From: an uncultured Bacteroidales bacterium
GTDB lineage: Bacteria > Bacteroidota > Bacteroidia > Bacteroidales > Muribaculaceae
Reading direction: 5' to 3'
DNA length: 63,792 bases
NCBI GenBank assembly: GCA_902792895.1
Contig: CADBBK010000029.1
Coordinates: forward strand, 1-63,792
In this document: piece by piece, positions 1-63,792 of the stretch
How the letters are laid out: every line of letters begins with the position of its first letter
Position numbering within the stretch: position 1 is the stretch's first letter
Made by a program: the position numbers and the translations under genes
Notes under the pieces: generated by a model
What the model was told of the DNA's origin: nothing
The model's input: the letters and a program-made list of their open reading frames with translations, nothing else
Database searches by the model: none

Positions 1-26
1 GGAAAAAATTCCCTTTTCAACCCTTT

Positions 27-47
27 AATGCTTGATAATCAAGCATT
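27..47. repeat. 21-bp perfect palindrome in the left terminal repeat
   Basis: Arms AATGCTTGAT and ATCAAGCATT flank a single A. The same palindrome occurs at 63746-63766. A dyad this long close to an element end could be a recombinase or replication-protein site; that role is inference. Confidence 0.7.
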
Positions 48-217
48 TGAATTTTTCAATCCTTTACAAATCGTAAAAAAACGCGAATTTTAACACTTTT
101 TTTTCTGAAAGAACCCCGATGAATACAGGTTTTACGGCCACTTTTGAGACCACCCTCAAATGTTAATTTTTTGGCTATTTTTTGTCACGTACTCACAAAA
201 AGTCGCGACAAAAAACG

Positions 218-253
218 ACCTTCCGCTGCCGTCCGAAAACGCCAGCGGAAGGT
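218..253. terminator. GC-rich hairpin downstream of the left ATPase gene
   Basis: An 11-bp stem (ACCTTCCGCTG with its complement), one C-C mismatch, then CGT/ACG around the loop CCGAAA. The counterpart at 63540-63575 has an unbroken 15-bp stem. There is no good T-tract, so it may be a structural or protein-binding site rather than an intrinsic terminator. Confidence 0.5.
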
Positions 254-365
254 ACAATAACAGCTTCAATGTAAACTATCTCATACCACACCAAATCGCT
301 GACAGTAGTAGAAAAAAGTGCCTATACTGATGTGGCAAGCTGACCAGCGATCTCTCAATGCCCAT

Positions 366-1049
366 TTATCGAAGGCTTTTGCCTTTGAACTCGATAAAAT
401 TGAACATCTCAAGAAACCTGTCGGCGATGTAGTCGCCGTACTTCGGAGCAATCTCTTCCATCGTAAGGTTGGTGGTCACGTGTGTGACGCTAGTGCGTCT
501 GTGATCATAGCGTAACTGGAAGACAAGCTGGAGTATATTTTGCTCCATGCCGTAGTATTTCGCAACTTTGGGTTCTCTTCCCAACTCATCGATGATGAGG
601 TTCCTTTCATCGTCAGTGTACGGCACTAGACCAGGAAGGCCGTCGATAGCATAGATGTTCGCCAACTCACTGGCAGACTTCAACAAGATGCCCTTCATTC
701 GAAAATCGTCATGTGTGCTTTCATATCGGGCATGTACGCTGTTGCGGTATTGGCGCACGGCTTGCAGCGTCATTGATTTGCCAAGGCCCAGTGATCCGTA
801 AAGGTATAGACCTTTTTTGTAGTCCAACTTGAGAGTGTTGTATGCATTGTTCTTCCACACCCAGGCAAATATTGACTTAAGGATGTCCTTGTCTAAGAGC
901 GTTGGGTTGAAACGTGGTTCAACCTTGCGGAAGGCTGCGAGATAGTATTGTACCTCTTTGACCATATCAACCGATTTTTGCGGTGTGAATGGTTGCTCTC
1001 GCAAGCGGGTTACTTGTTGTTGAAGTGTTTGTTGTGTTTTTGGGTCCAT
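366..1049 (-). CDS. DnaC/IstB-like AAA+ ATPase (helicase loader-like)
   Basis: A 227-residue P-loop ATPase of the DnaC/IstB type, proteins that load the replicative helicase at an origin opened by an initiator. Walker A GSLGLGKS is at residues 85-92 and Walker B LIIDELG at 151-157. A late TTNLTMEEIA...IADRF segment carries the probable arginine finger. The start overlaps the 3' end of the upstream initiator gene by 83 bp in another frame, which suggests translational coupling. It matches the right-end ATPase only weakly (about 30% by eye), mostly around TTNLT and IADRF. Because its partner is an HTH_36 protein and not a transposase, a replication role is more likely than an IstB role. Confidence 0.85.
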   Translation of the reverse strand: MDPKTQQTLQQQVTRLREQPFTPQKSVDMVKEVQYYLAAFRKVEPRFNPTLLDKDILKSIFAWVWKNNAYNTLKLDYKKGLYLYGSLGLGKSMTLQAVRQYRNSVHARYESTHDDFRMKGILLKSASELANIYAIDGLPGLVPYTDDERNLIIDELGREPKVAKYYGMEQNILQLVFQLRYDHRRTSVTHVTTNLTMEEIAPKYGDYIADRFLEMFNFIEFKGKSLR

Positions 1050-1662
1050 TGGATTGTTGTTTTAAGTCGTTAACTTTATGGCGTAGAACAGACATGAAGT
1101 GTTTCTTTGTCCACTCACTATCTTCGAGATCTTGAAATTTCCAATCAGCGATGATCTTCTCAGCCAGATGTCTGTATTCTTCTGCAGTTATCCCACAGCT
1201 CTTACATGCAAGCTCAATGTTTAAATCAATCATCACTTCAAGTTCAAGTTTCTTGCGCGTATCGTCGTCGACGTTGTTATTTAATTGTTTTTTCTTATTA
1301 TAATGTGTAGTAGGGTACTCATTTGGTGGGGGTGGTACGGCTATTTTGGTGGGGGTACCATTTGAGCTACCTACTATTTTGGTGGGGGTCTCCTCACACT
1401 TGGGCGTATCTCTTACAGCTTCATACACATTCGTCTGACCTGGCACACTCTTCACGGAAACCAAACCTTTCCTCTCGAGTTTGCATACGCATCGGCACCA
1501 AGTTTTTTCGTTGATATGTAGTGTATCACAGGCCGAACGCACGGTATACCTGTACCCGTTAGGCATAGAAGCGATGAAATTCCACACTGCTTTATCTGAA
1601 ACACTAAGTTCAGATGAACGGATGATAGCGTTCGGAACCATTGTGAAGCCCTTGTCGTTCAT
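967..1662 (-). CDS. HTH_36-type replication initiator-like protein
   Basis: A 231-residue protein. Residues 1-85 form a winged-helix HTH_36-like domain with FTMVPNAIIRS, AVWNFIASM, VRSACDTL and TNVYEAVRD. A proline-rich linker (about 88-125) follows, then a conserved C-terminal block (EVMIDLNIELA, IIADW, EWTKKHF). The right-end homologue shares roughly 55% identity over the HTH and C-terminal blocks. Such proteins pair with DnaC-like loaders in phage and plasmid replication modules, so I infer an initiator. The linker-coding DNA carries three copies of TTTGGTGGGGGT, which may be internal origin repeats. The gene overlaps the ATPase gene by 83 bp. Confidence 0.75.
   Translation of the reverse strand: MNDKGFTMVPNAIIRSSELSVSDKAVWNFIASMPNGYRYTVRSACDTLHINEKTWCRCVCKLERKGLVSVKSVPGQTNVYEAVRDTPKCEETPTKIVGSSNGTPTKIAVPPPPNEYPTTHYNKKKQLNNNVDDDTRKKLELEVMIDLNIELACKSCGITAEEYRHLAEKIIADWKFQDLEDSEWTKKHFMSVLRHKVNDLKQQSNGPKNTTNTSTTSNPLARATIHTAKIG
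1322..1389. repeat. Three 12-bp repeats inside the initiator linker
   Basis: TTTGGTGGGGGT occurs exactly at 1322-1333, 1345-1356 and 1378-1389, inside the proline-rich linker codons of the initiator gene. The right cassette has looser versions at about 62468-62505. This placement recalls phage lambda O, where origin iterons lie inside the initiator gene; the analogy is inference. Confidence 0.7.
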
Positions 1663-1692
1663 AGTTACAATCTCTTTGAAAGTTCGTCGACC

Positions 1693-1727
1693 GGCAACTC
1701 AGCCTCCACAAGGAGGCTGAACTTGCC
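1693..1727 (-). ncRNA. Conserved stem-loop before the initiator gene, left copy
   Basis: On the minus strand, GGCAAGTTCAGCCTCC and GGAGGCTGAGTTGCC pair over 15 bp with one bulged G and a TTGT loop. The right cassette has a different sequence but the same kind of hairpin in the same place (62098-62135). A preserved fold with changed sequence suggests a structured RNA or single-stranded DNA element. It could control initiator expression or act as a replication assembly site. Confidence 0.6.
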
Positions 1728-1757
1728 TTTCGAATACGATGTGTTTTCCATGATAGA

Positions 1758-2075
1758 TTAGATTTTACAGCCGACGAGACGTTCGATGTCGCTTTTGCGG
1801 TAGCGACGCTTGCCGCCGATCTCTACCTTCTTGAGGATGCCGTTCTGGTCCCAACGGTAGAGCGTCATCTTGGAGACGGACAGCAACTCTGACGCCTCAT
1901 CGATGGTTAATAACTGGTCGCTCGTCGCAGCGGCTTCTGCTTCAATCATAGCGACTGACTTTGCGCCGACAAGAATGTCTTGCGCGAACTCTTTCAAGTC
2001 CTTTGCTGAAACCTGAAGGATGACATTGGCATCTGATGCCAGGATGTCTGGTAATGTAAAATTTGTAGGTGTCAT
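1758..2075 (-). CDS. Excisionase-like HTH_17 (MerR-type) DNA-binding protein
   Basis: A 105-residue protein. The C-terminal half is a helix-turn-helix of the HTH_17/excisionase family: LLTIDEASELLSVSKMTLYRW, the wing GGKRRYRKSDIERLV and a short tail. The N-terminal half (FTLPDILASDANVILQVS...) is specific to this element family and is nearly as conserved. The right-end homologue is about 80% identical by eye, the most similar protein pair of the two cassettes. It is probably a small regulator of the cassette or an excision factor. It lies downstream of the conserved leader and iteron-like array. Confidence 0.8.
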   Translation of the reverse strand: MTPTNFTLPDILASDANVILQVSAKDLKEFAQDILVGAKSVAMIEAEAAATSDQLLTIDEASELLSVSKMTLYRWDQNGILKKVEIGGKRRYRKSDIERLVGCKI

Positions 2076-2121
2076 TGTTGAGTTATGAATTAGAGAGCAG
2101 GTTCTCGCTCATGTGTGTTAT

Positions 2122-2185
2122 ATGCCCTCCCGAATCCAGCTCTCGGTCGCAGAACCTTTGCGCCAGTCCATCATCGTTCGGACAT
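2122..2185 (-). ncRNA. Conserved structured leader upstream of the HTH gene, left copy
   Basis: This 64-nt block closely matches the right cassette (61649-61711). Outer arms ATGTCC and GGGCAT pair with one G-U; the right copy has ATGTCC and GGACAT. An inner hairpin, GGCGCA / TGCGACC with a bulged A, is the same in both. The 5' arm lies near the predicted transcription start, so it may be only partly transcribed. Confidence 0.5.
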
Positions 2186-2187
2186 TG

Positions 2188-2195
2188 CAAAGTTA
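2188..2195 (-). promoter_or_regulatory. -7 box of the left HTH/initiator/ATPase operon
   Basis: TAACTTTG on the minus strand matches the Bacteroidota -7 consensus TAnnTTTG. The palindrome GCATTATAATGC lies just upstream, where a bound protein could block the promoter. Confidence 0.7.
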
Positions 2196-2201
2196 CTGCC
2201 A

Positions 2202-2333
2202 GCATTATAATGCCATAATAATGCCGATATAAAAAAAGAGCGATAAAGATATTTCTATAATTTATTGTGTATCATTATGTTGTGCGTGATTTGTAGAAAT
2301 ATTTTCTAATGCCGTTTAATGCCAAATAATGCT
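2202..2333. repeat. Iteron-like TAATGCC array, left cassette
   Basis: Direct copies of TAATGCC(T) lie at 2208, 2219, 2307, 2317 and 2327, and an inverted GCATTA precedes the first to give a 12-bp palindrome. Spacings of 10-11 bp put the copies on one helix face. The array fills the gap between the unknown-protein gene and the operon promoter. It is likely a binding site for the cassette's initiator or HTH protein, or an origin. Confidence 0.65.
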
Positions 2334-2336
2334 ATT

Positions 2337-3203
2337 TTACTTTTTGAGATGTTTTTCTACAATATCGCATAGCATTTCATACCACTCTTTGTGATTGGTG
2401 TTGTTTTTCGAGGCTTGTTTGGGTACAATGTTTATTGATGTGCAGGCATCTCGCAACCATTGCTTCTTTTGCTCTTTTACACACCTTTTGATGTGTGATA
2501 AAGAACTCCAGAATTTATCCTTAAGTAGGGGATGGATTTCGCTAATGTCAGCATTAACAACCGCACTTGCCAGTTCATGGTATGGAAAATCAATATCAAG
2601 AACTCCTGTCGATCTAAGATAATTGAGTATACCTAGGAGTAATGACTCATTTGCAATAGTATATTTTGATTGTTCTTTTTCTTTCTCAGATCGTGTGATT
2701 GGCTGAGTTTCGCTATTTTTATCTGATGGGAACAGCGTCTCAAGGCTATATTTCATGGCAGCTTGATTTTCAGGTGTTGATTTTATACGATCAGCTATCA
2801 GATTTACAGCCCATGCTATCTTATCCTCTTCAAAGTCATTTGGTCGGGAAATGATATCCAAAGCAATAATATCAGATTTGATGGTTTCCATTAAAGAGAA
2901 AAAATCTCCACAGCCTCTCTCAATAAAATCGAATTTTTTTGATTTGTCAAGGTCTGTATTAGTTATAATATATTGATCAACTTCTGGAGACAATATGAAT
3001 TTCTTGATCACTTTTGCAACAATCTCTTTTTCATATTTGATGTTCGTATAGAGCACGCTAAATGCTAGTCGTGACTGAATGAAATATGCTCTCATATCAT
3101 AGGGTAGGGCTACTGCCACTTTATAAATGTCGTCATAGGAAGATATGCGCTTTGCTGCATCCCTAACTATATTGCCGTAATACTTCGCAGTGTCGTAACT
3201 CAT
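2337..3203 (-). CDS. Cassette protein of unknown function (288 aa)
   Basis: I do not recognise this protein. It is 288 residues, soluble-looking and largely helical, with no signal peptide or membrane segment. It is clearly, though distantly (about 25%), related to the 302-residue protein of the right cassette. Shared features are the start (YDxxKxYG), an early ALPYDMRAYFIQSRLAFSVLY-like block, ADISEIHPL late in the chain, and a closing NHKEWYEMLCDIV-like segment. No catalytic motif of tyrosine or serine recombinases is visible. It has its own promoter and lies on the tRNA side of the iteron-like array. Confidence 0.7.
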   Translation of the reverse strand: MSYDTAKYYGNIVRDAAKRISSYDDIYKVAVALPYDMRAYFIQSRLAFSVLYTNIKYEKEIVAKVIKKFILSPEVDQYIITNTDLDKSKKFDFIERGCGDFFSLMETIKSDIIALDIISRPNDFEEDKIAWAVNLIADRIKSTPENQAAMKYSLETLFPSDKNSETQPITRSEKEKEQSKYTIANESLLLGILNYLRSTGVLDIDFPYHELASAVVNADISEIHPLLKDKFWSSLSHIKRCVKEQKKQWLRDACTSINIVPKQASKNNTNHKEWYEMLCDIVEKHLKK

Positions 3204-3241
3204 CGGAATATCAGTTTATGTGTTGTAATGGTTTTACAAGG

Positions 3242-3249
3242 CAAAGTTA
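3242..3249 (-). promoter_or_regulatory. -7 box for the left unknown-protein gene
   Basis: TAACTTTG on the minus strand, about 40 bp before the start codon. The following CATTACAACACA resembles the sequence at the same place in the right cassette. Confidence 0.6.
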
Positions 3250-3425
3250 CAAATTATTCTTCAGAATGTGATATAGTGGGATAGGGAGTAAAGAACTTTT
3301 TTCAAACAAAATATCAACAGATAAAGAAGGCGGTGCAATTTTGGAGATAAGTGTTAATCGGTGCAGAAATCGGGCTGGAAAATTTTTGAACCGGTGCAAT
3401 TTCGGTGCAGTTTTGACCACGAAAA

Positions 3426-3458: not shown

Positions 3459-3467
3459 CAAAAAAGG

Positions 3468-3551
3468 TGTCCAAGATGAGAGTCGAACTCACACGCCCAA
3501 TCGGGCACTACCCCCTCAAAGTAGCGCGTCTACCAATTCCGCCACCTGGAC
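3468..3551 (-). tRNA. tRNA-Leu (GAG)
   Basis: An 84-nt class II tRNA. The acceptor GTCCAGG pairs with CTTGGAC, the variable arm is long (TGCCCGATTGGGCG) and the T arm reads GAGTTCGACTC. Anticodon loop TTGAGGG gives GAG for CUC codons. CCA is not encoded. Its 3' end faces the left cassette, the usual arrangement for integration at a tRNA. Confidence 0.93.
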
Positions 3552-7005: not shown

Positions 7006-10000
7006 CTAACGATTGTGGGGATGGAGGATCATTTCGATGATTGCATTGATGTCGCTGACAGTAACTTCGCGGTCGCCGTTCACGTCCAGGTCGCTGTCTG
7101 TTTGCCCTGTGATAATGGCATTGACAATCATGTTGATATCGGCAACGGTTGTCTCGTGGTCAAAGTTCACGTCTCCGTTTCTCAGGTAGCTCTCTAGGCT
7201 TTCTAGAGTTGAAAAATGACTCCAACATCCCGAACTCCCGTACTTGGCCATGGATGCCTCAGGAACAATCAGTAGCGCAGAATTATAGGTTTCGTTACTG
7301 AAACAGCTCATATTGGTAGTCAGTGGCGGATTCTCGGCTTTGCAGATGACGCGGCTCAACGACGTACACCTACCGAATGCCTCTCGGTCAATCCAGGACA
7401 CTGTGCTTGGCAATTTGAGGCTCTGGATGTAGGCGCAGTTGTAAAAAGCATAATTGTTGAGGCGCGTCACCCCCTCGGGCAGAACGCAGTTGATGACTTC
7501 TTGCCCGTCGAGATACAAGTGGCTTTGTGTCTGGAACGGCACGGCAGTGTAATTCGCGAAATAGATGGAACACCATGAGGTGAGATCTGAAATAAAGACG
7601 TGGGTTAATTTCTGACAATAATAAAAAGCGTGGGCCCCAATCGTTGATACTGTCTTAGGAATGCTGATGCTGTCCAGCGAGGTGCAGTAGTAGAACGCAG
7701 TGCCTAAAATGGTCTCGACTTGGTCCCCCAGTTCAACCTTGGTGAGATTTCGGCAGCTGGCGAATGCATGTGAGGGTATCATCTTTAAGCCATGACCAAG
7801 TTTCACATGCTTTAAAGCGGCGTTGTCTGCTAATACCCCCATGCCCATGGTCGTGACTGAATTGGGTATCTCGATGCTGGTAAGCCCCGATGACCGGAAT
7901 GCTTCATCGCCGATGGAAACAATGTTATTGGGTATTACAATGGACTTCAAAGATTCACAAAGTCCAAACGCATTAGCGCCAATCCCCGACAAGGAAGGGC
8001 CTAATGCCACGCTGCTGAGAGACTTGCAGTCATAGAACGTATACCTGCCCATGCTGGTCACCGCATCGGGGATGACAATGCTGGAAATGCCGGTGCTCAT
8101 AAAGGCCTCATCGCCTATGGTGGTCACTCTGTCGGGAATCTCGATGGACTCCAAGGCATTGCACGTCTTGAAAGCGCGGGACCCGATTCGAGTCATGGAA
8201 GCGCCAAAAGCCACGCTGGCTAGCGAGCTGCAGTTTTCAAAGGAGGAATTGCCGATGCTTGTGACCGCGTCGGGGAGTGTGATGCTCGTGAGCCCGGTGT
8301 TCATGAATGCCTGTTCTCCAATGGCATGAAGGTTCTCGGGGAGCGCGATCGTGTCCAGGGCGCTGCACCCCTTGAACCCTGAGGTGCCAATCGACTCGAC
8401 AGCCGTTCCCATTATCACGCTGTTCAAGGTTGAACAGCCCTCAAAGGCCGATGTGCCGATGGTGATTACCGTGTTGGGAATCACGACGCTTTTCAGTACC
8501 TTATTGTTCTTGAATGCGTTGTTTCCAATGTCGGTGACAGTATAAATGGCACCGTCGCCCATGACAGTTTCAGGTATGGTGACGTTTTCATTGGTGCCTT
8601 GGCTCTTGATGACCTTGGCCGTGCTGTCACTGGTGCGGTACAGGATCAGGTCATCGACATAAAACGAGCCATCGTCTGTCGTGGTGATCTGCTTGAAGTA
8701 ATTCCACGGCGAGGTCGCTCTGTAATCTGCCTCGGCAAATGTCGGTACCTCTACGACAACGTTGTTATATGCGTTGCTGGAGAAGCTACTCTGTGTTCCC
8801 TTGGGAGGAGTGGGGGTTTCACAATAGATGTTTTTCAGTCCTGCAGAGTGAAATGCGTCGTCACTTATCGTCAACGAAAACGACTTGATGGTGAGTTCAG
8901 TTAGTTTTCGGCAATAATAAAATACTAATTCTCCTAACGAGGTGAGTGATGTGCCTAATGTGACGCTGGTAAGTGACGAGCAGCTGTAGAATGCCTGAGA
9001 ATCGATTTGTCTAACGGAGTTGGGGATGACCACTTGGCTGATGGCCGATCTCATAAAGGCGTCGGCGCCTATCGATTCAAGCCCCTCGGGGAGTGCTATC
9101 GAGGACAGGCTGGAGCAATTATTGAATGCTTTGCTTTGAATTGACTTTAAGGATGCGCTCAATGTCACAGTGGTGAGCGATGTACAGTTCTCAAAGGCCG
9201 AATTGCCGATTGCAGTGACGCTTTCGGGAATCTCTATGGCCTGCAGAGACGTACAGCTCATAAAGACTTTATCACTCATCGCTTCCAATTCGCCGCCAAA
9301 GGTCACATTAATAAGCGCAGAGCAATCTTGAAAAGCCGACTGCCCGATAGTGGAAACAGTGTTGGGAATCACCACACTTTGCAGCACTTCGTTTGACATG
9401 AACGCATGCCAACCGATGGCGTTGACAGTATAGGTTACGCCCTCATCTACAATGGTCGATGGAATGACAAGGTCTGTTTCATGGCCCGTATAGCTCTTGA
9501 CCTCGACAGTGGTGTCGCTCGTCTTTAAATAGGTGAAGTCACCGCTGTTGATGTAACCATTGACATCATAGGGGGAAATGTGGGTGAACGATTGCCAGGG
9601 CTGCGTCTGACGATAGACGGCCTCGGCCGACTGGGGCACCTCAAGCAATGCGTTTTGATATACCGAACTGCTGAAACAGTTGGTGTTTCCTGATGGCGGG
9701 GTGAGGCTTTTACAGATGATGAAATCAATGGGGCTGTCGTCAAAACAGTAATTGCCCATTGTCAATGCCGTCGATGCGATAGTCAACTTGGTAAGCATGG
9801 GGCAATGAGAGAATGCCGATTCGCCGACAGATTCCAAACCCTCACCCAAGGTCACGTTGGAAAGATATGGGCAAGCCTCGAATGCCGAGGTTCCGATGCT
9901 GGAAACCGAGTCGGGAATAACAACGGTGGATAAATGTGTGCCCTTGAAGGCATTGCTGCCTATCGTGGTGATGCTGGCAGGCAGTGTGATATCTACCAGT

Positions 10001-30175: not shown

Positions 30176-31660
30176 TCATTCAAATGAATTTTGTTTCAAG
30201 AAGTTGACCTCTTCCTGTGTCAGGTAGCGCCAGCGGCCGCGGGGCAGGTTCTTCTTGGTGAGGCCAGCGAAATAAACGCGGTCGAGCTTCACCACATGAT
30301 AGCCCAGCGATTCAAAAATGCGGCGCACGATGCGGTTGCGGCCACTGTGAATCTCGATACCGGCCTGCTTGCGGTCGGTGGGCGATACGTAGCTCACTGC
30401 ATCGGCATGGATGGGACCGTCGTCGAGCTCAACGCCGTCGGCGATGTGCTGCATGTCCTCCTCGCTGATGGGCTTGTCGGTCCACACCTGGTAGATTTTC
30501 TTCTTGACATATTGCGGATGGGCGAGTTTGGCAGCCAGGTCACCGTCGTTGGTGAGCAGCAGCACACCAGTGGTGTTGCGGTCCAGACGGCCAACGGGAT
30601 AGATGCGCTCCTCACAGGCTCCCTTCACCAGGTCCATGACGGTCTTGCGGCCGTTGGGGTCGTCACTGGTGGTGACGCAGTCCTTGGGCTTGTTGAGCAG
30701 GATGTAGCACTTCTTCTCGGTGGTGACGATTTCGCCGTTGTATTTCACAACGTCCTTGGGGGTAATCTTCATTCCGAGCTCGGTCACTACTTGATCATTG
30801 ACCATGACGAGGCCTTTCTGGATATACTCGTCAGCCACACGGCGCGAGCAGATGCCAGCATTGGCCAGGAACTTGTTCAGGCGTACCTCCATGTTGGGAT
30901 CGATAGCCGGCTCCTCGTAAATAACGCGTTGGGGCTTGGGCGTGAAACGCATCTGGGGCTTGGGACCTTGGCGCTTGGGGCGCTGTTGGAAACCACCCTG
31001 CTGGCGCTGCTGATAGCCACCCTGCTGGCGCTGCTGGTAGCCACCCTGCTGACGCTGCTGGTAGCCGCCCTGACGCTGCTGATAGCCACCCTGGCGCTGC
31101 TGGTAACCGCCCTGACGCTGCTGATAGCCACCCTGACGCTGCTGGTAACCACCCTGACGGGGCTGGTAACCGCCCTGACGGGGCTGATAACCCTGACGGG
31201 GCTGATAACCCTGACGGGGCTGGTAGCCGCCTTGCTGCTGTTCGGGATTGATGGGGTTGCCTTCGGCATTAGTAGCCTGTTCGGTAGTGCCTTGGGTCTG
31301 CTGATAGCGCTGCTGGTAACCCTGACGGGGCTGGTAACCGCCCTGACGCTGCTGGTAACCACCCTGACGCTGCTGGTAACCGCCTTGACGCTGCTGGTAA
31401 CCACCCTGACGGGGCTGGTAACCCTGGCGCTGCTGATAACCACCTTGACGGGGCTGATAACCCTGGCGCTGGTAACCTTGACGGGGCTGATAACCCTCCT
31501 GCTGATAACCCTCGGCTTGGGGATTGCTTTCTTCGCCTTGATGAGGCTCATGGGCGGTGTATTCTACCTTTTCATAGCGACCGCCTTCGATGTTTTCTTC
31601 CAAAGTGCCATTCGTTTCGCCGATTCTTGGTCTTTTCGGTTTTTTCTGATTCTCGTCCAT
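30176..31660 (-). CDS. RluB-family pseudouridine synthase with long GYQ/RQG low-complexity domain
   Basis: 494 residues. The C-terminal 240 residues are an S4 domain (MEVRLNKFLANAGICSRR, about 257-305) and an RluB/RsuA-type catalytic domain with GRLDRNTTGVLLLTNDGD, whose Asp is the catalytic residue. It probably makes a pseudouridine in 23S rRNA. The N-terminal half is unusual: residues 51-118 and 144-227 are many repeats of GYQQRQG and GYQPRQG. This disordered, Arg/Gly/Gln/Tyr-rich stretch resembles RNA-binding RGG tracts. The DNA beneath is tandem repeats. Confidence 0.9.
   Translation of the reverse strand: MDENQKKPKRPRIGETNGTLEENIEGGRYEKVEYTAHEPHQGEESNPQAEGYQQEGYQPRQGYQRQGYQPRQGGYQQRQGYQPRQGGYQQRQGGYQQRQGGYQQRQGGYQPRQGYQQRYQQTQGTTEQATNAEGNPINPEQQQGGYQPRQGYQPRQGYQPRQGGYQPRQGGYQQRQGGYQQRQGGYQQRQGGYQQRQGGYQQRQQGGYQQRQQGGYQQRQQGGFQQRPKRQGPKPQMRFTPKPQRVIYEEPAIDPNMEVRLNKFLANAGICSRRVADEYIQKGLVMVNDQVVTELGMKITPKDVVKYNGEIVTTEKKCYILLNKPKDCVTTSDDPNGRKTVMDLVKGACEERIYPVGRLDRNTTGVLLLTNDGDLAAKLAHPQYVKKKIYQVWTDKPISEEDMQHIADGVELDDGPIHADAVSYVSPTDRKQAGIEIHSGRNRIVRRIFESLGYHVVKLDRVYFAGLTKKNLPRGRWRYLTQEEVNFLKQNSFE
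30980..31510 (-). repeat. Coding tandem repeats for the GYQ/RQG tract
   Basis: Repeats of 18-24 bp, in phase with codons, encode GYQPRQ/GYQQRQG units in two blocks separated by about 75 bp of unique sequence. Copy number is likely to vary between strains by slippage. Confidence 0.85.
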
Positions 31661-60222: not shown

Positions 60223-60294
60223 GGACCCGTAGTTCAATGGATAGAATAAAGGATTCCGGTTCCTTCGATTGGGGTTCGACTCCCCACGGGTTCA
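60223..60294 (+). tRNA. tRNA-Arg (CCG)
   Basis: A 72-nt tRNA: acceptor GGACCCG with CGGGTTC, anticodon arm AAGGA-TTCCGGT-TCCTT (anticodon CCG, codon CGG), T arm TGGGGTTCGACTCCCCA. CCA is not encoded. Its 3' end faces the right cassette. Confidence 0.94.
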
Positions 60295-60303
60295 CCTTAA
60301 TTG

Positions 60304-60573: not shown

Positions 60574-61482
60574 ATGAATTACGATTTCACAAAAGATTAT
60601 GGCAAACTGGTAAAAATGATGGCTGCTGAGTTTAACAAAGGTCGCGATATATATGAAGCAGCTTCAGTCCTGCCGAAATATTCAGACTATCATTTTGTGT
60701 TTTCGCGCCTTGCTTATAAAGAATTATATGAAAAATTCTATCCAGACAATCAAGATGAGGTTACGTTTGTCATTGATAATTATGTGATGTCTAATTCCGT
60801 AGCAACCGCCTTTTTAGAGCATCTTTATGCCGATTCTGGTGTTGCGATTGAATTCATCAAACGTGAGATTGGTGATGCTTACTCCATGCTTCGCCAAATC
60901 CAACAGCTTTTGCAGGGAATGGCTATAACGTCTCATCCTGAAGATGGAACGCAAGAACTATATGAATTTACAATTAATAACATTATAAAGCCTGTTGTTG
61001 AAGAAGCAAACGCGAATGAAGAGTATATTAAGGCGGCCCTAGCTTCATATATCGCCCAAGGTTCAAAAAGAATTGATGTTATAGATGATGACTTCTCCGA
61101 ACAGGAAAAGTTACCAGAAACGAAGGTAGCAACTGGTCATATTAATAAAGATAAAGATTCGATACTTTACCAAATTAAGGACTATAAACAATGTGTTAGA
61201 CTCTACGAGTACTTGCAAGAGACAAAAGTATTGGATGACAGCACTTCGTTACAAGTTTTTCTAGATGCGATTGTTCATGCTGATATGAGTATGATCACCC
61301 CAATACACTTAACCCGCTTTCGTTGTGCAGTACAAAGAACCAAATGGACTGTTTATGGAGATGCTGATTTGTGGGCAAGAGTCGCTTGTGGCTCAATTGG
61401 AAAGACTCCAAGTCAAGCCTTATCGGGTGCGTCAAATAATGCTGCTTGGTTTGAAGGCCTGTGTGAAATAGTGCCAGAATAG
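60574..61482 (+). CDS. Cassette protein of unknown function (302 aa)
   Basis: Not recognised. A 302-residue helical, soluble-looking protein, distantly related to the left-cassette 288-residue protein. Shared segments are MNYDFTKDYG, VLPKYSDYHFVFSRLAYKELY, LQVFLDAIVHADMSMI and NNAAWFEGLCEIV. A variable acidic region (about 165-195) separates two halves. AT-rich codon use differs from the interior chromosomal genes, suggesting transfer. No recombinase or nuclease motif is visible. Confidence 0.72.
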   Translation: MNYDFTKDYGKLVKMMAAEFNKGRDIYEAASVLPKYSDYHFVFSRLAYKELYEKFYPDNQDEVTFVIDNYVMSNSVATAFLEHLYADSGVAIEFIKREIGDAYSMLRQIQQLLQGMAITSHPEDGTQELYEFTINNIIKPVVEEANANEEYIKAALASYIAQGSKRIDVIDDDFSEQEKLPETKVATGHINKDKDSILYQIKDYKQCVRLYEYLQETKVLDDSTSLQVFLDAIVHADMSMITPIHLTRFRCAVQRTKWTVYGDADLWARVACGSIGKTPSQALSGASNNAAWFEGLCEIVPE

Positions 61483-61749: not shown

Positions 61750-62064
61750 ATGAACACAAAATTTAATTTATCTGACATATTGGCCTCTGAAGCCAATGTC
61801 ATTCTTCAAGTTTCCTCTGACGACTTGAAAATGTTTGCCCAGGATATCTTGATTGGGGCGAAGAGTGTAGCGATGCTTGAGGCAGAGACTGCTGCATCAG
61901 GTGACCAACTGTTGACCATCGATGAAGCTTCAAAGCTTCTCGCTGTGTCAAAGATGACGCTCTATCGATGGGATCAGAGCGGTGTCCTCAAGAAGCTGGA
62001 GATCGGCGGCAAACGCCGGTATCGTAAGAGTGATATCGATCGTCTCGTCGGTGGTAAAATGTGA
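61750..62064 (+). CDS. Excisionase-like HTH_17 (MerR-type) DNA-binding protein
   Basis: 104 residues from MNTKFNLSDILASEANVI. The HTH is LLTIDEASKLLAVSKMTLYRW with wing GGKRRYRKSDIDRLV. About 80% identical to the left copy. The start at 61750 is chosen because the left homologue begins at the same place; the longer frame from 61660 would translate the conserved leader. Confidence 0.82.
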   Translation: MNTKFNLSDILASEANVILQVSSDDLKMFAQDILIGAKSVAMLEAETAASGDQLLTIDEASKLLAVSKMTLYRWDQSGVLKKLEIGGKRRYRKSDIDRLVGGKM

Positions 62065-62097
62065 TACGCTTTGAGACGCATGCTAAATCATCCTGTG

Positions 62098-62135
62098 CTG
62101 TAAGTTCTGCCTCTGTAAGGAGGTTGAACTTACAG
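62098..62135 (+). ncRNA. Conserved stem-loop before the initiator gene, right copy
   Basis: CTGTAAGTTC pairs perfectly with GAACTTACAG; after a T-T mismatch and a G-T pair, CCTC pairs with GAGG around the loop TGTAAG. Compared with the left hairpin, both arms changed together while the fold stayed. Confidence 0.6.
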
Positions 62136-62163
62136 ACGATGATATCAGAAAAAGGTTTTAGCC

Positions 62164-62895
62164 ATGATCAGTAAAAACTTCACGAAAGTTCCAAACGACC
62201 TCATCCGCTCACGAATACTTTCCCCTGTCGAGAAGATTGTATGGTCCTACATTGCTTCTATGCGTGATGGGCACACGTATGCAGTGCGCTCAGCATGTGA
62301 GATCCTGGGCATCAATGTAAAGACTTGGCGAAAGTGTGTGGCAGAGTTAGAAAGGCGAGGAATGGTCTTCGTGAAGACGATTCCTGGAAAGGTGAATGTG
62401 TATTCAGCGGTGAGAGATCCTTCTGTATGGAACCTGCCCCTTGCCAATGGAGTAGGGTGCTCAAACGGTACCCCTACCCAAAAGGACTCACCACCTCTAC
62501 CAAATGAGTACCTGGGTACACATTCTTATAAAGAAGATATAAATAAGACTATCAACGATGATGAGCGCGAAAGGCTTAAAAATGAAATAATGATTGATGC
62601 CAATATTGAACTTGCTTGCATGGGCTGTGGGATAACCATTGAACAATACAAGCAGCTTGCGGCAATGATTATCGCTGATTGGACATTTAAGGATCTTCCC
62701 GAAGGAGAGTGGACAAAGAAACACTTCCTGAATGTGTTGCATTACAAAGTTGACAATTTAAAAAACAATCAATATGGAAAAACAAATAATAAATCAAATC
62801 TCGGAGGAAACTCCCAAACCGAAGATAGATATGCAAGTCGTAGAGGAACTGACGCAAAAGATCATACAGCGAAAGATTATGGTCGATCGTTTTAG
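62164..62895 (+). CDS. HTH_36-type replication initiator-like protein
   Basis: 243 residues. HTH_36 domain at about 3-88 (FTKVPNDLIRS, IVWSYIASM, VRSACEILGINVKTWRKCV, VNVYSAVRD). A Pro-rich linker (GCSNGTPTQKDSPPLPNEY) follows, then the conserved EIMIDANIELA...IIADWTF...EWTKKHFLNVLHYKV block. The gene overlaps the ATPase gene by 122 bp in another frame, more than the 83 bp of the left pair. Probable origin-binding initiator. Confidence 0.77.
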   Translation: MISKNFTKVPNDLIRSRILSPVEKIVWSYIASMRDGHTYAVRSACEILGINVKTWRKCVAELERRGMVFVKTIPGKVNVYSAVRDPSVWNLPLANGVGCSNGTPTQKDSPPLPNEYLGTHSYKEDINKTINDDERERLKNEIMIDANIELACMGCGITIEQYKQLAAMIIADWTFKDLPEGEWTKKHFLNVLHYKVDNLKNNQYGKTNNKSNLGGNSQTEDRYASRRGTDAKDHTAKDYGRSF

Positions 62896-63487
62896 GTTTA
62901 ACCTAACGCCACAGAATGCTTTGAATTTGCTTGCGGCCCATTATGCAGCTGCTGTGAGAATGCGCCACGGGTTCCCTCAGTTCGACGAGAATACCAATGA
63001 GAATCTACTTCAGCTGGCCAACTATTTGACCCAGAAGGAGCCAAAGTTTGGCGTGATGATGTGCGGCACCTGTGGCAATGGAAAAACCACGCTGCTCTAT
63101 GCCTTGCAGAGTGCCTTAAACCAACTTAACCAAATGGGGCATTTCACGTTCCTGAGCGAATATTTCCAGGTCGGCATGGAGATAGTTGACGCCAAGGATG
63201 TCGTTATCATGGCCAAAGATTTGAAGGCTATAAGCAATCTGCGGTCACGCTCGATGCTGGCCATAGATGACCTGGGTAAAGAAGCCGCCGAGGTATTGGA
63301 CTTTGGCAACGCTCTCAGCCCCGTTATTGATTTGCTCGAATATCGCTACCAGCACCAGCTGTTCACTGCTATCACTACCAATCTCACCAACGAAGAGATT
63401 GCAAAGAAGTACGGAAAACGAATTGCCGACCGCTTTAACGAGATGCTTGAAGTCATCATCTTTCAAGACATCACTTACAGGCACTAA
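62774..63487 (+). CDS. DnaC/IstB-like AAA+ ATPase (helicase loader-like)
   Basis: 237 residues. Walker A GTCGNGKT at 98-105, Walker B MLAIDDLG at 161-168, TTNLTNEEIAKKYG and IADRF near the end. More DnaC-like than the left ATPase, with which it shares about 30%. Its stop codon is 2 bp from the start of the 303-bp terminal repeat. Confidence 0.86.
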   Translation: MEKQIINQISEETPKPKIDMQVVEELTQKIIQRKIMVDRFRFNLTPQNALNLLAAHYAAAVRMRHGFPQFDENTNENLLQLANYLTQKEPKFGVMMCGTCGNGKTTLLYALQSALNQLNQMGHFTFLSEYFQVGMEIVDAKDVVIMAKDLKAISNLRSRSMLAIDDLGKEAAEVLDFGNALSPVIDLLEYRYQHQLFTAITTNLTNEEIAKKYGKRIADRFNEMLEVIIFQDITYRH

Positions 63488-63539
63488 TTGTCAGCGATTT
63501 GGTGTGGTATGAGATAGTTTACATTGAAGCTGTTATTGT

Positions 63540-63575
63540 ACCTTCCGCTGACGTTTTCGGACGTCAGCGGAAGGT
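63540..63575. terminator. 15-bp hairpin in the right terminal repeat
   Basis: ACCTTCCGCTGACGT and its exact complement around the loop TTTCGG, 53 bp past the ATPase stop. No T-tract; it may act as a terminator or as a recognition hairpin. Confidence 0.55.
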
Positions 63576-63745
63576 CGTTTCGGGTTGAGACTTCTTGTGA
63601 GTACGTGACAAATAATAGCCAGAAAATTAACATTTGAGGGTGGTTTCAAAAGAGGCCGTAAAACCTGTATTCATCGGGGTTCTTTCAGAAAATAAAGTGT
63701 TAAAATTCGCGTTTTTTTACGATTTGTAAAGGATTGAAAAATTCA

Positions 63746-63766
63746 AATGCTTGATTATCAAGCATT
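63746..63766. repeat. 21-bp perfect palindrome in the right terminal repeat
   Basis: Mirror of the palindrome at 27-47, with arms AATGCTTGAT and ATCAAGCATT. Confidence 0.7.
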
Positions 63767-63792
63767 AAAGGGTTGAAAAGGGAATTTTTTCC

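Follow-up and report, generated by a model that had tools for sequence, protein, structure and literature searches.

Two tRNA-anchored islands with exchanged replication modules as the probable source of the unevenly diverged end cassettes of a Bacteroidales contig

How can two gene cassettes be bordered by almost identical repeats when the genes within them have diverged to very different degrees? This question is raised by the window, i.e., the whole of contig C29 (CADBBK010000029.1, 63,792 nucleotides) from the 58-contig genome assembly of an uncultured Bacteroidales bacterium (GCA_902792895.1), which breaks at both window ends. At each end, a cassette reads from a tRNA gene, Leu(gag) on the left and Arg(ccg) on the right, towards the contig end and comprises a gene in a position termed slot 1 followed by genes for a helix-turn-helix (HTH) protein, a replication initiator and an ATPase (Table 1). 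In our view, each cassette is very probably the attL end, next to the tRNA gene, of its own integrative island, and the two islands have exchanged replication modules, a reading that builds on the observed anatomy, on attL, attR and integrase in relatives, on scars of a displaced module and on discordant trees. Loci, genomes and contigs are designated L, G and C, respectively, with G000 for the window's own genome, and winL and winR are the left and right cassettes.

The inverted 304-bp repeat at the contig ends contains 13 mismatches (95.7% identity), while the proteins of the left and right cassettes share 79-80% (HTH), 52-53% (initiator), 27-31% (ATPase) and 27-29% (slot 1) of their amino acids. 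The computed values agree with those estimated by eye for the repeat and all four proteins in a first-pass annotation, which had proposed either module exchange between shared ends or a recombinase acting on the ends in trans. Third codon positions of the HTH gene pair are only 45% identical, and the repeat therefore cannot share the divergence time of the genes at an equal rate.

Conflicting trees are the usual evidence for module exchange in mobile elements. Across 25 cassettes for which pairwise identities were calculated, identity shifts abruptly from gene to gene. The slot-1 proteins of L035, L038 and L078 are 100% identical (rounded), yet their initiators match pairwise at 61-83% and their ATPases at 69-97%. 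L036 and winR, both located at tRNA-Arg(ccg), share 24% in slot 1, 91% in the HTH protein, 75% in the initiator and 95% in the ATPase, and L091 and L096 have slot-1 proteins with 84% identity and different replication modules. Slot 1 has been swapped independently of the replication module. Trees were calculated for 11 cassettes that combine an initiator pair with a slot-1 protein of the unknown family, or 10 in the case of the HTH protein, as the partial L038 sequence was dropped. When the grouping of one protein was forced upon another, approximately unbiased (AU) tests rejected it in all six cases that gave a p value (0.006 to 5e-57); a seventh concerned a group that was already present. 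Separate protein trees, the check proposed in the first-pass annotation, are thus in conflict and not congruent. Sliding identity plots resolve L078 into a mosaic of L035-like and winL-like DNA with breakpoints inside the HTH and initiator genes. Module exchange is strongly supported by these data, and the swaps would have been carried out by general homologous recombination in conserved stretches.

The direction of the exchange is recorded in scars. Replication modules of the family come as an initiator and ATPase pair or as a pair of DUF3987 protein and primase. In cassettes of the latter type, the DUF3987 gene begins within about 10 bases of the HTH stop codon or overlaps it. Initiator-type cassettes have a gap of 89-109 bases at this place, which holds a relict of the first ~25 DUF3987 codons, and a relict of the last primase codons follows the ATPase stop codon. 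Each relict was scored against 60 shuffles in 20 initiator-type cassettes, several of which are near-identical and hence do not represent 20 independent events. The left relict exceeded all shuffles in 20/20 cassettes, with a margin of a single point only in L036 and L077, and the right relict in 18/20, failing in L077 and L096. Reverse relicts, i.e., remnants of initiator or ATPase genes in DUF3987-type cassettes, were found in none of 11 tested (L039 was left out). As the relicts point one way, we conclude that the initiator and ATPase pair replaced the DUF3987 and primase pair. Fifteen primase codons are kept in winL and seven in winR, so the right-hand borders differ. Module exchange as suggested in the first-pass annotation is accordingly borne out by conflicting trees, mosaic breakpoints, unrelated slot-1 genes beside near-identical neighbours and relicts of the DUF3987-primase module on both sides. 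As a separate observation, the complete DUF3987-type cassette of L039 is followed at 8260-8741 by a fragment of a second cassette, which is of the initiator type and has a repeat piece of its own.

The window's own genome contains a third repeat copy on contig C37, near tRNA-Arg(acg), in a cassette with an IS1595-like gene in slot 1 and the DUF3987 and primase pair instead of initiator and ATPase. Residues 43-85 of a relative's primase find no match in the C37 gene (L004:804-1560), the two parts of which lie in different frames, and this primase copy is therefore probably inactive.

The left scar coincides with a strong hairpin. Compared with shuffled sequences, z-scores were -4.5 (winL), -4.4 (winR), -6.3 (L077), -4.3 (L149) and -6.0 (coding version of C37), and no excess was found in L041 and L096, the remaining two of seven cases tested. 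A scan without shuffle control revealed a local hairpin below -15 kcal/mol in 35/39 cassettes of both module types. Across 27 distinct sequences, 85% of the inner stem is paired and 13 additional pair types occur, five of them changed on both sides; when the stem was slid by 1-3 bases as a control, pairing was 31-53%, with 6-9 additional types, of which 1-4 were changed on both sides. The pairing of the stem is clear, and the changes on both sides would lend it weak support. In winR and L036, the DUF3987 reading frame has decayed and the hairpin is kept. Judging from these sequences, the hairpin may be regulatory and common to both replication modules. Tentatively, and with more doubt than conviction, we propose that the hairpin behind the HTH gene and the block of primase tail, terminator and repeat could form a docking bay, in which both kinds of module would be hairpin-controlled and swapped via two borders, integrase, excisionase and cargo would stay, and slot 1 would encode another exchangeable factor that diverges rapidly, perhaps one of helper or immunity specificity.

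Where do the islands begin and end? The 3' end of the tRNA gene is followed by a hairpin and then by short paired direct repeats. G173 is a complete genome in which the same paired repeat is found again at a distance of 41 kb, and behind it come 14 bases from the 3' end of the tRNA and a hairpin; this second site adjoins a tyrosine integrase gene, the reading frame of which is split in two. The equivalent site in G300 adjoins an intact integrase of 465 amino acids. The 14-base core was searched in 20 genomes and a tRNA copy was present in 19, 16 of which carry cassette genes there (exceptions G332, G264 and G212). A second core copy beside a tyrosine integrase was detected in G173, G300, G260, G276, G156 and G217, corresponding to 6/19 genomes or 6/16 cassette-bearing ones, and G164 yielded the integrase-side copy only. 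The arm repeats at attR are exactly those of attL in G173, G300, G260 and G217, and a single similar motif is present in G276 and G156; G217 is the sole island with another arm repeat, and its integrase type also differs. The relatives thus exhibit the traits of tRNA-gene islands, i.e., a duplicated att core with arm repeats and an integrase at the attachment site (6/6 attR). Islands without integrase that depend on a helper had been considered and were dropped once integrases were found at attR of relatives. Within single loci, no stretch of 13 bp or more from the tRNA 3' region was repeated exactly, because attR mostly lies on another contig or far off, and a search with a 19-base tRNA pattern also failed to detect attR, as the duplicated core comprises 14 bases. 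An integrase motif test over the loci then at hand missed the integrases of L069 and L101.

The 304-bp repeat is probably not an element end. Exactly 99 bases are identical at the two contig ends, followed by 13 differences over the next 205; random placement of 13 mismatches would leave the first 99 bases clean with a probability of 0.005. The identical stretch may well be the overlap left by an assembler working with 99-base words. The expectation that the exchange took place between shared ends is not supported, and the repeat does not appear to mark a boundary in the manner of a terminal inverted repeat: in the window it lies at contig breaks, in G207 it continues into further DNA, and in G173 a homologue of repeat bases 1-73 only (78% identity) is internal, about 3.7 kb inside attL of the 41-kb island. 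The repeat or part of it occurs in 28/297 family genomes, own genome included, mostly as partial matches. Twenty of these sites were fetched, and all of them are located 3' of a gene for tRNA-Leu, tRNA-Arg, tRNA-Lys or tRNA-Ala; five (L047, L049-L052) showed no match to cassette proteins, and in L049 the tRNA side is joined directly to repeat bases 76-9. The repeat contains the terminator-like hairpin of the operon and, in its 3' part, the primase coding tail. It would function as a terminator and perhaps also as a cis site such as an origin. Rfam at gathering thresholds (window, L004, L034 and L048) returned no match on the repeat and otherwise reported tRNAs, a cobalamin riboswitch and Bacteroidales-1 RNA, and searches of viral contigs with the exact repeat and the arm motifs gave 0 matches.

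Several further observations concern the surroundings of the repeat. A GC-rich, apparently non-coding stretch of ~1.3 kb beyond it (L034:7230-9150) belongs to a dispersed multi-copy family with matches in 11/11 genomes searched, only short ones in G280. By eye, its neighbours include a toxin-antitoxin-like pair (L049) and phage-like genes (L103, L108), and it also occurs beside a row of tyrosine recombinase genes (L104:155-3324; 2/3 open reading frames fit the integrase motif). A degenerate second copy of the repeat start lies ~500 bp further out (L004:518-821 and 1-41; L034 7715-7755), and several such units are arranged in tandem at the tRNA-Ala locus of G217 (L102 10626-12044).

If the 304-bp repeats were the true termini of small integrase-less elements, a recombinase acting in trans could keep them alike while the genes between them were exchanged freely. 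The left copy is indeed 91-96% identical to 7/8 full-length or nearly full-length copies from other genomes (77% in G272), attR or a matching integrase was not found in the own genome, the cargo between primase and repeat in L085 and L086 (= L161) is as expected of an end, and in G173, the island without gaps, the repeat is merely partial. We nevertheless consider this alternative improbable, since the homologous stretch is internal in G173, the contig ends resemble an assembly break, the repeat's 3' part is the coding tail of a primase gene and six relatives have an integrase in cis at attR. With such tyrosine integrases next to attR and attL's arm-type repeats, the recombinase in trans of the first-pass annotation is not needed; in the window's own genome, where no attR copy was found, the island may act through an enzyme in trans or be decayed. 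Gene conversion among copies of the same genome, which would homogenise the repeat while the genes diverge, would fit the 95-96% identity of the three own-genome copies, yet the copies of G260, G207 and G187 match the left copy equally well (95.1-95.7%). As identity is not in excess within the genome, conversion among its copies is not needed, and we regard it as very improbable. Plain descent at very unequal rates, with a constrained non-coding region, fast proteins and no exchange, is scarcely credible: constraint is plausible for the repeat, which is far more conserved than host synonymous sites (folE third positions of seven related genomes are 67-75% identical to those of the window), but unrelated gene pairs occupy the same place, groupings were rejected, slot-1 proteins with 100% identity (rounded) stand beside divergent replication genes, and the relict codons of the other module on both sides already contradict it. 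The uneven divergence is best described as the joint outcome of module exchanges and of a repeat that has been strongly conserved, possibly through constraint, or has possibly spread recently.

Several points weigh against attL ends of two islands as the source of the cassettes. The own genome with its 58 contigs yielded neither a second exact core copy or attR nor a close relative of the G300 integrase, and the window contig has no integrase at an attachment site. Its five Phage_integrase matches all lie on other contigs, and the three examined show 25-30% identity or no match to the G300 integrase. One of these three (C10) adjoins an HTH paralogue near a BrxP gene. Only the G173 island is gap-free, and here the integrase frame is split, a slot-1 gene was not recognised and the repeat matches partially; the term internal repeat thus rests on a partial homologue. 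In 13/19 genomes, attR was not seen. In G237, an ordinary gene contains the second core copy, and in G207 the repeat is followed by apparently non-coding DNA and then by a transporter gene. The groups for the AU tests were picked once the identities were known, resolution of the HTH tree is poor, and a transfer or packaging gene was not recognised among the scanned proteins. Independently of these points, the C10 locus (L135:6784-16001 of G000) combines integrase and HTH genes with the BrxP gene of a BREX system.

The general picture of two islands with exchanged modules was pieced together from several relatives. One island would reside in tRNA-Leu(gag) and one in tRNA-Arg(ccg), and the contig would stop where both enter a shared internal repeat. 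An island would start with the tRNA 3' end containing the att core and arm-type repeats and a variable slot-1 gene (none recognised in G173), followed by the excisionase-like HTH gene, the hairpin, the replication module, in some cases cargo, and then the operon terminator and repeat. The far part would comprise more cargo (defence genes in the islands examined), the tyrosine integrase gene, arm repeats and the attR core. Modules would be exchanged between islands by recombination in conserved stretches, and in the window's islands a phage-type initiator and a DnaC-like loader would have taken the place of a DUF3987 helicase and a PriCT-2 primase.

PHROGs assigned the two ATPases to DnaC-like loaders (2e-15 and 2e-25) and supported the initiators with 3e-7 and 6e-8, and the order of initiator and DnaC-like loader is that of an O/P-type module. 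Among 11 viral contigs with a relative of the loader, four (L125-L128) have an initiator match beside it. The displaced DUF3987 helicase and PriCT-2 primase belong to families of mobile-element primase-helicase modules. Searches against phage records gave no match for the HTH protein and five for DUF3987 (20-26% identity), and the loader ATPase found three partial matches in plasmid records. Slot-1 proteins form a predicted all-helical family with 20-45% identity in most pairs; the left one had no match in NCBIfam and PHROGs and none above the Pfam cut-off, and its fold had no PDB or viral match at E <= 0.001.

The islands examined carry anti-phage defence genes. Of 10 scanned proteins in a first set, PADLOC matched nine, with a CBASS cyclase and effector, type I restriction-modification, AbiEi and PDC-M36 in the G173 island, which also encodes ArdA. 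In a second set, 9/10 proteins were likewise matched, and the models included PDC-M55 for L086, where the gene is located between those of primase and repeat, and PDC-M33 for a neighbour of the integrase in G300. No relaxase was detected among 10 G173-island proteins scanned with Pfam and no capsid-hijacking or packaging gene among eight cassette proteins scanned with PHROGs. A search with the HTH protein retrieved 46 loci, mostly from uncultured Bacteroidales, Muribaculaceae or Prevotellaceae, and several from goat, deer, yak or buffalo guts. A tRNA gene lies just upstream of the cassette in 31 of 44 loci examined (L181 and L182 were left out); the other 13 include short contigs and loci with an integrase gene beside or upstream of the HTH gene. 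Several of these contigs are also among the 20 repeat sites fetched. In L165 (2895-12846), a single contig joins genes for an integrase, an AbiE-like pair (by eye), an IS1595-like protein, HTH protein, DUF3987 and primase. Elsewhere in the window, a direct-repeat family of nine copies, mostly spaced by 21 bp, overlies a long open reading frame at 31015-31483.

Table 1. Coordinates of the island features at the two ends of the window
Feature	Position	Strand	Remarks
tRNA-Leu(gag), left island target gene	3466..3551	-	14-bp att core at 3467-3480; in 6 relatives, core also found next to integrases
Arm-type direct repeat of attL	3392..3409	-	Exact repeat also at integrase-side site of G173, G300, G164
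Slot-1 protein, 288 aa, predicted all-helical, outside known families	2337..3203	-	
Excisionase-like HTH_17 protein	1758..2075	-	Present in 24/25 cassettes compared; exception L093, a 1.2-kb contig, stops short of HTH gene
Left scar, DUF3987 5'-end relict, strong hairpin	1663..1757	-	Mini-ORF 1665-1751
Phage-type (O-like) replication initiator	967..1662	-	
DnaC-like helicase loader ATPase	366..1049	-	
Right scar, displaced PriCT-2 primase, last 15 codons and stop	281..328	-	
Terminator-like hairpin and T run, operon end, within repeat	211..252	-	Read by eye
Conserved repeat, left copy	1..304	.	No mismatch between the two contig ends over bases 1-99 (assembly break)
tRNA-Arg(ccg), right island target gene	60223..60296	+	Same tRNA in L036, L040
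Slot-1 protein, 302 aa, right island	60574..61482	+	
Excisionase-like HTH_17 protein, right island	61756..62064	+	
Left scar of right island, DUF3987 frame decayed, hairpin retained	62065..62163	+	
Replication initiator (HTH_36; O/DnaD-like), right island	62164..62895	+	
DnaC-like helicase loader ATPase, different lineage, right island	62774..63487	+	
Right scar of right island, primase last 7 codons and stop	63489..63512	+	
Conserved repeat, right copy	63489..63792	.	

Phage satellites (P4-like, PICI) combine a regulator with a phage-type replication module, a feature common to the islands; unlike these satellites, the islands have no recognised capsid-hijacking or packaging gene, for which no systematic search was made. 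The available part of the literature on P4-like satellites of Escherichia coli describes tRNA insertion and defence cargo (PMC10121019), and the islands resemble them in both. As far as covered by the accessible text, integrative and mobilizable elements of Bacteroidota with tyrosine integrases include NBU1 and MTnPi4 in tRNA-Leu and NBU2 in tRNA-Ser (PMC5704250). A tyrosine integrase, a small excisionase-like HTH protein and a tRNA-Leu 3' end as insertion site are shared with the islands. Unlike NBU-type elements, the islands have no relaxase recognised among the proteins examined, the integrase is located at the far end, and a variable slot-1 gene lies between attL and the HTH gene. Common target sites and varied defence cargo connect the islands with those defence islands of E. 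coli and Pseudomonas that are modular or linked to tRNA genes, as depicted in the consulted portions of the reports (PMC10121019, PMC12629846). In contrast to those, the replication module itself is interchangeable here and flanked by relicts of the displaced module. Mobile-element primase-helicase modules with BT4734-like, PriCT-2 and DUF3987 proteins appear in the part of PMC5862659 at hand, and the islands' displaced module falls into the same protein families; unlike the modules presented there, an O/DnaC-type pair has been substituted in the 20 cassettes examined here.

Judged by title and the beginning of the abstract, none of the papers that searches of open-licence literature returned describes this island family. 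Already known, within the limits of the text available from the two sources, are tyrosine-integrase insertion into tRNA-Leu in Bacteroidota and tRNA-linked defence islands and satellites in E. coli (PMC5704250, PMC10121019). The family, new and strongly modular, represents an element type that is already known and is set apart by a replication module that can be interchanged and has relicts at either border. When an assembled contig carries the same repeat at its two ends, the assembly may simply have broken there, and the repeat need not be an element end, which calls for caution. Thanks to the relicts of first and last codons left in place, the direction of a module swap can be read from single sequences, and this is achieved here for a tRNA-anchored family of elements that is linked to anti-phage cargo.

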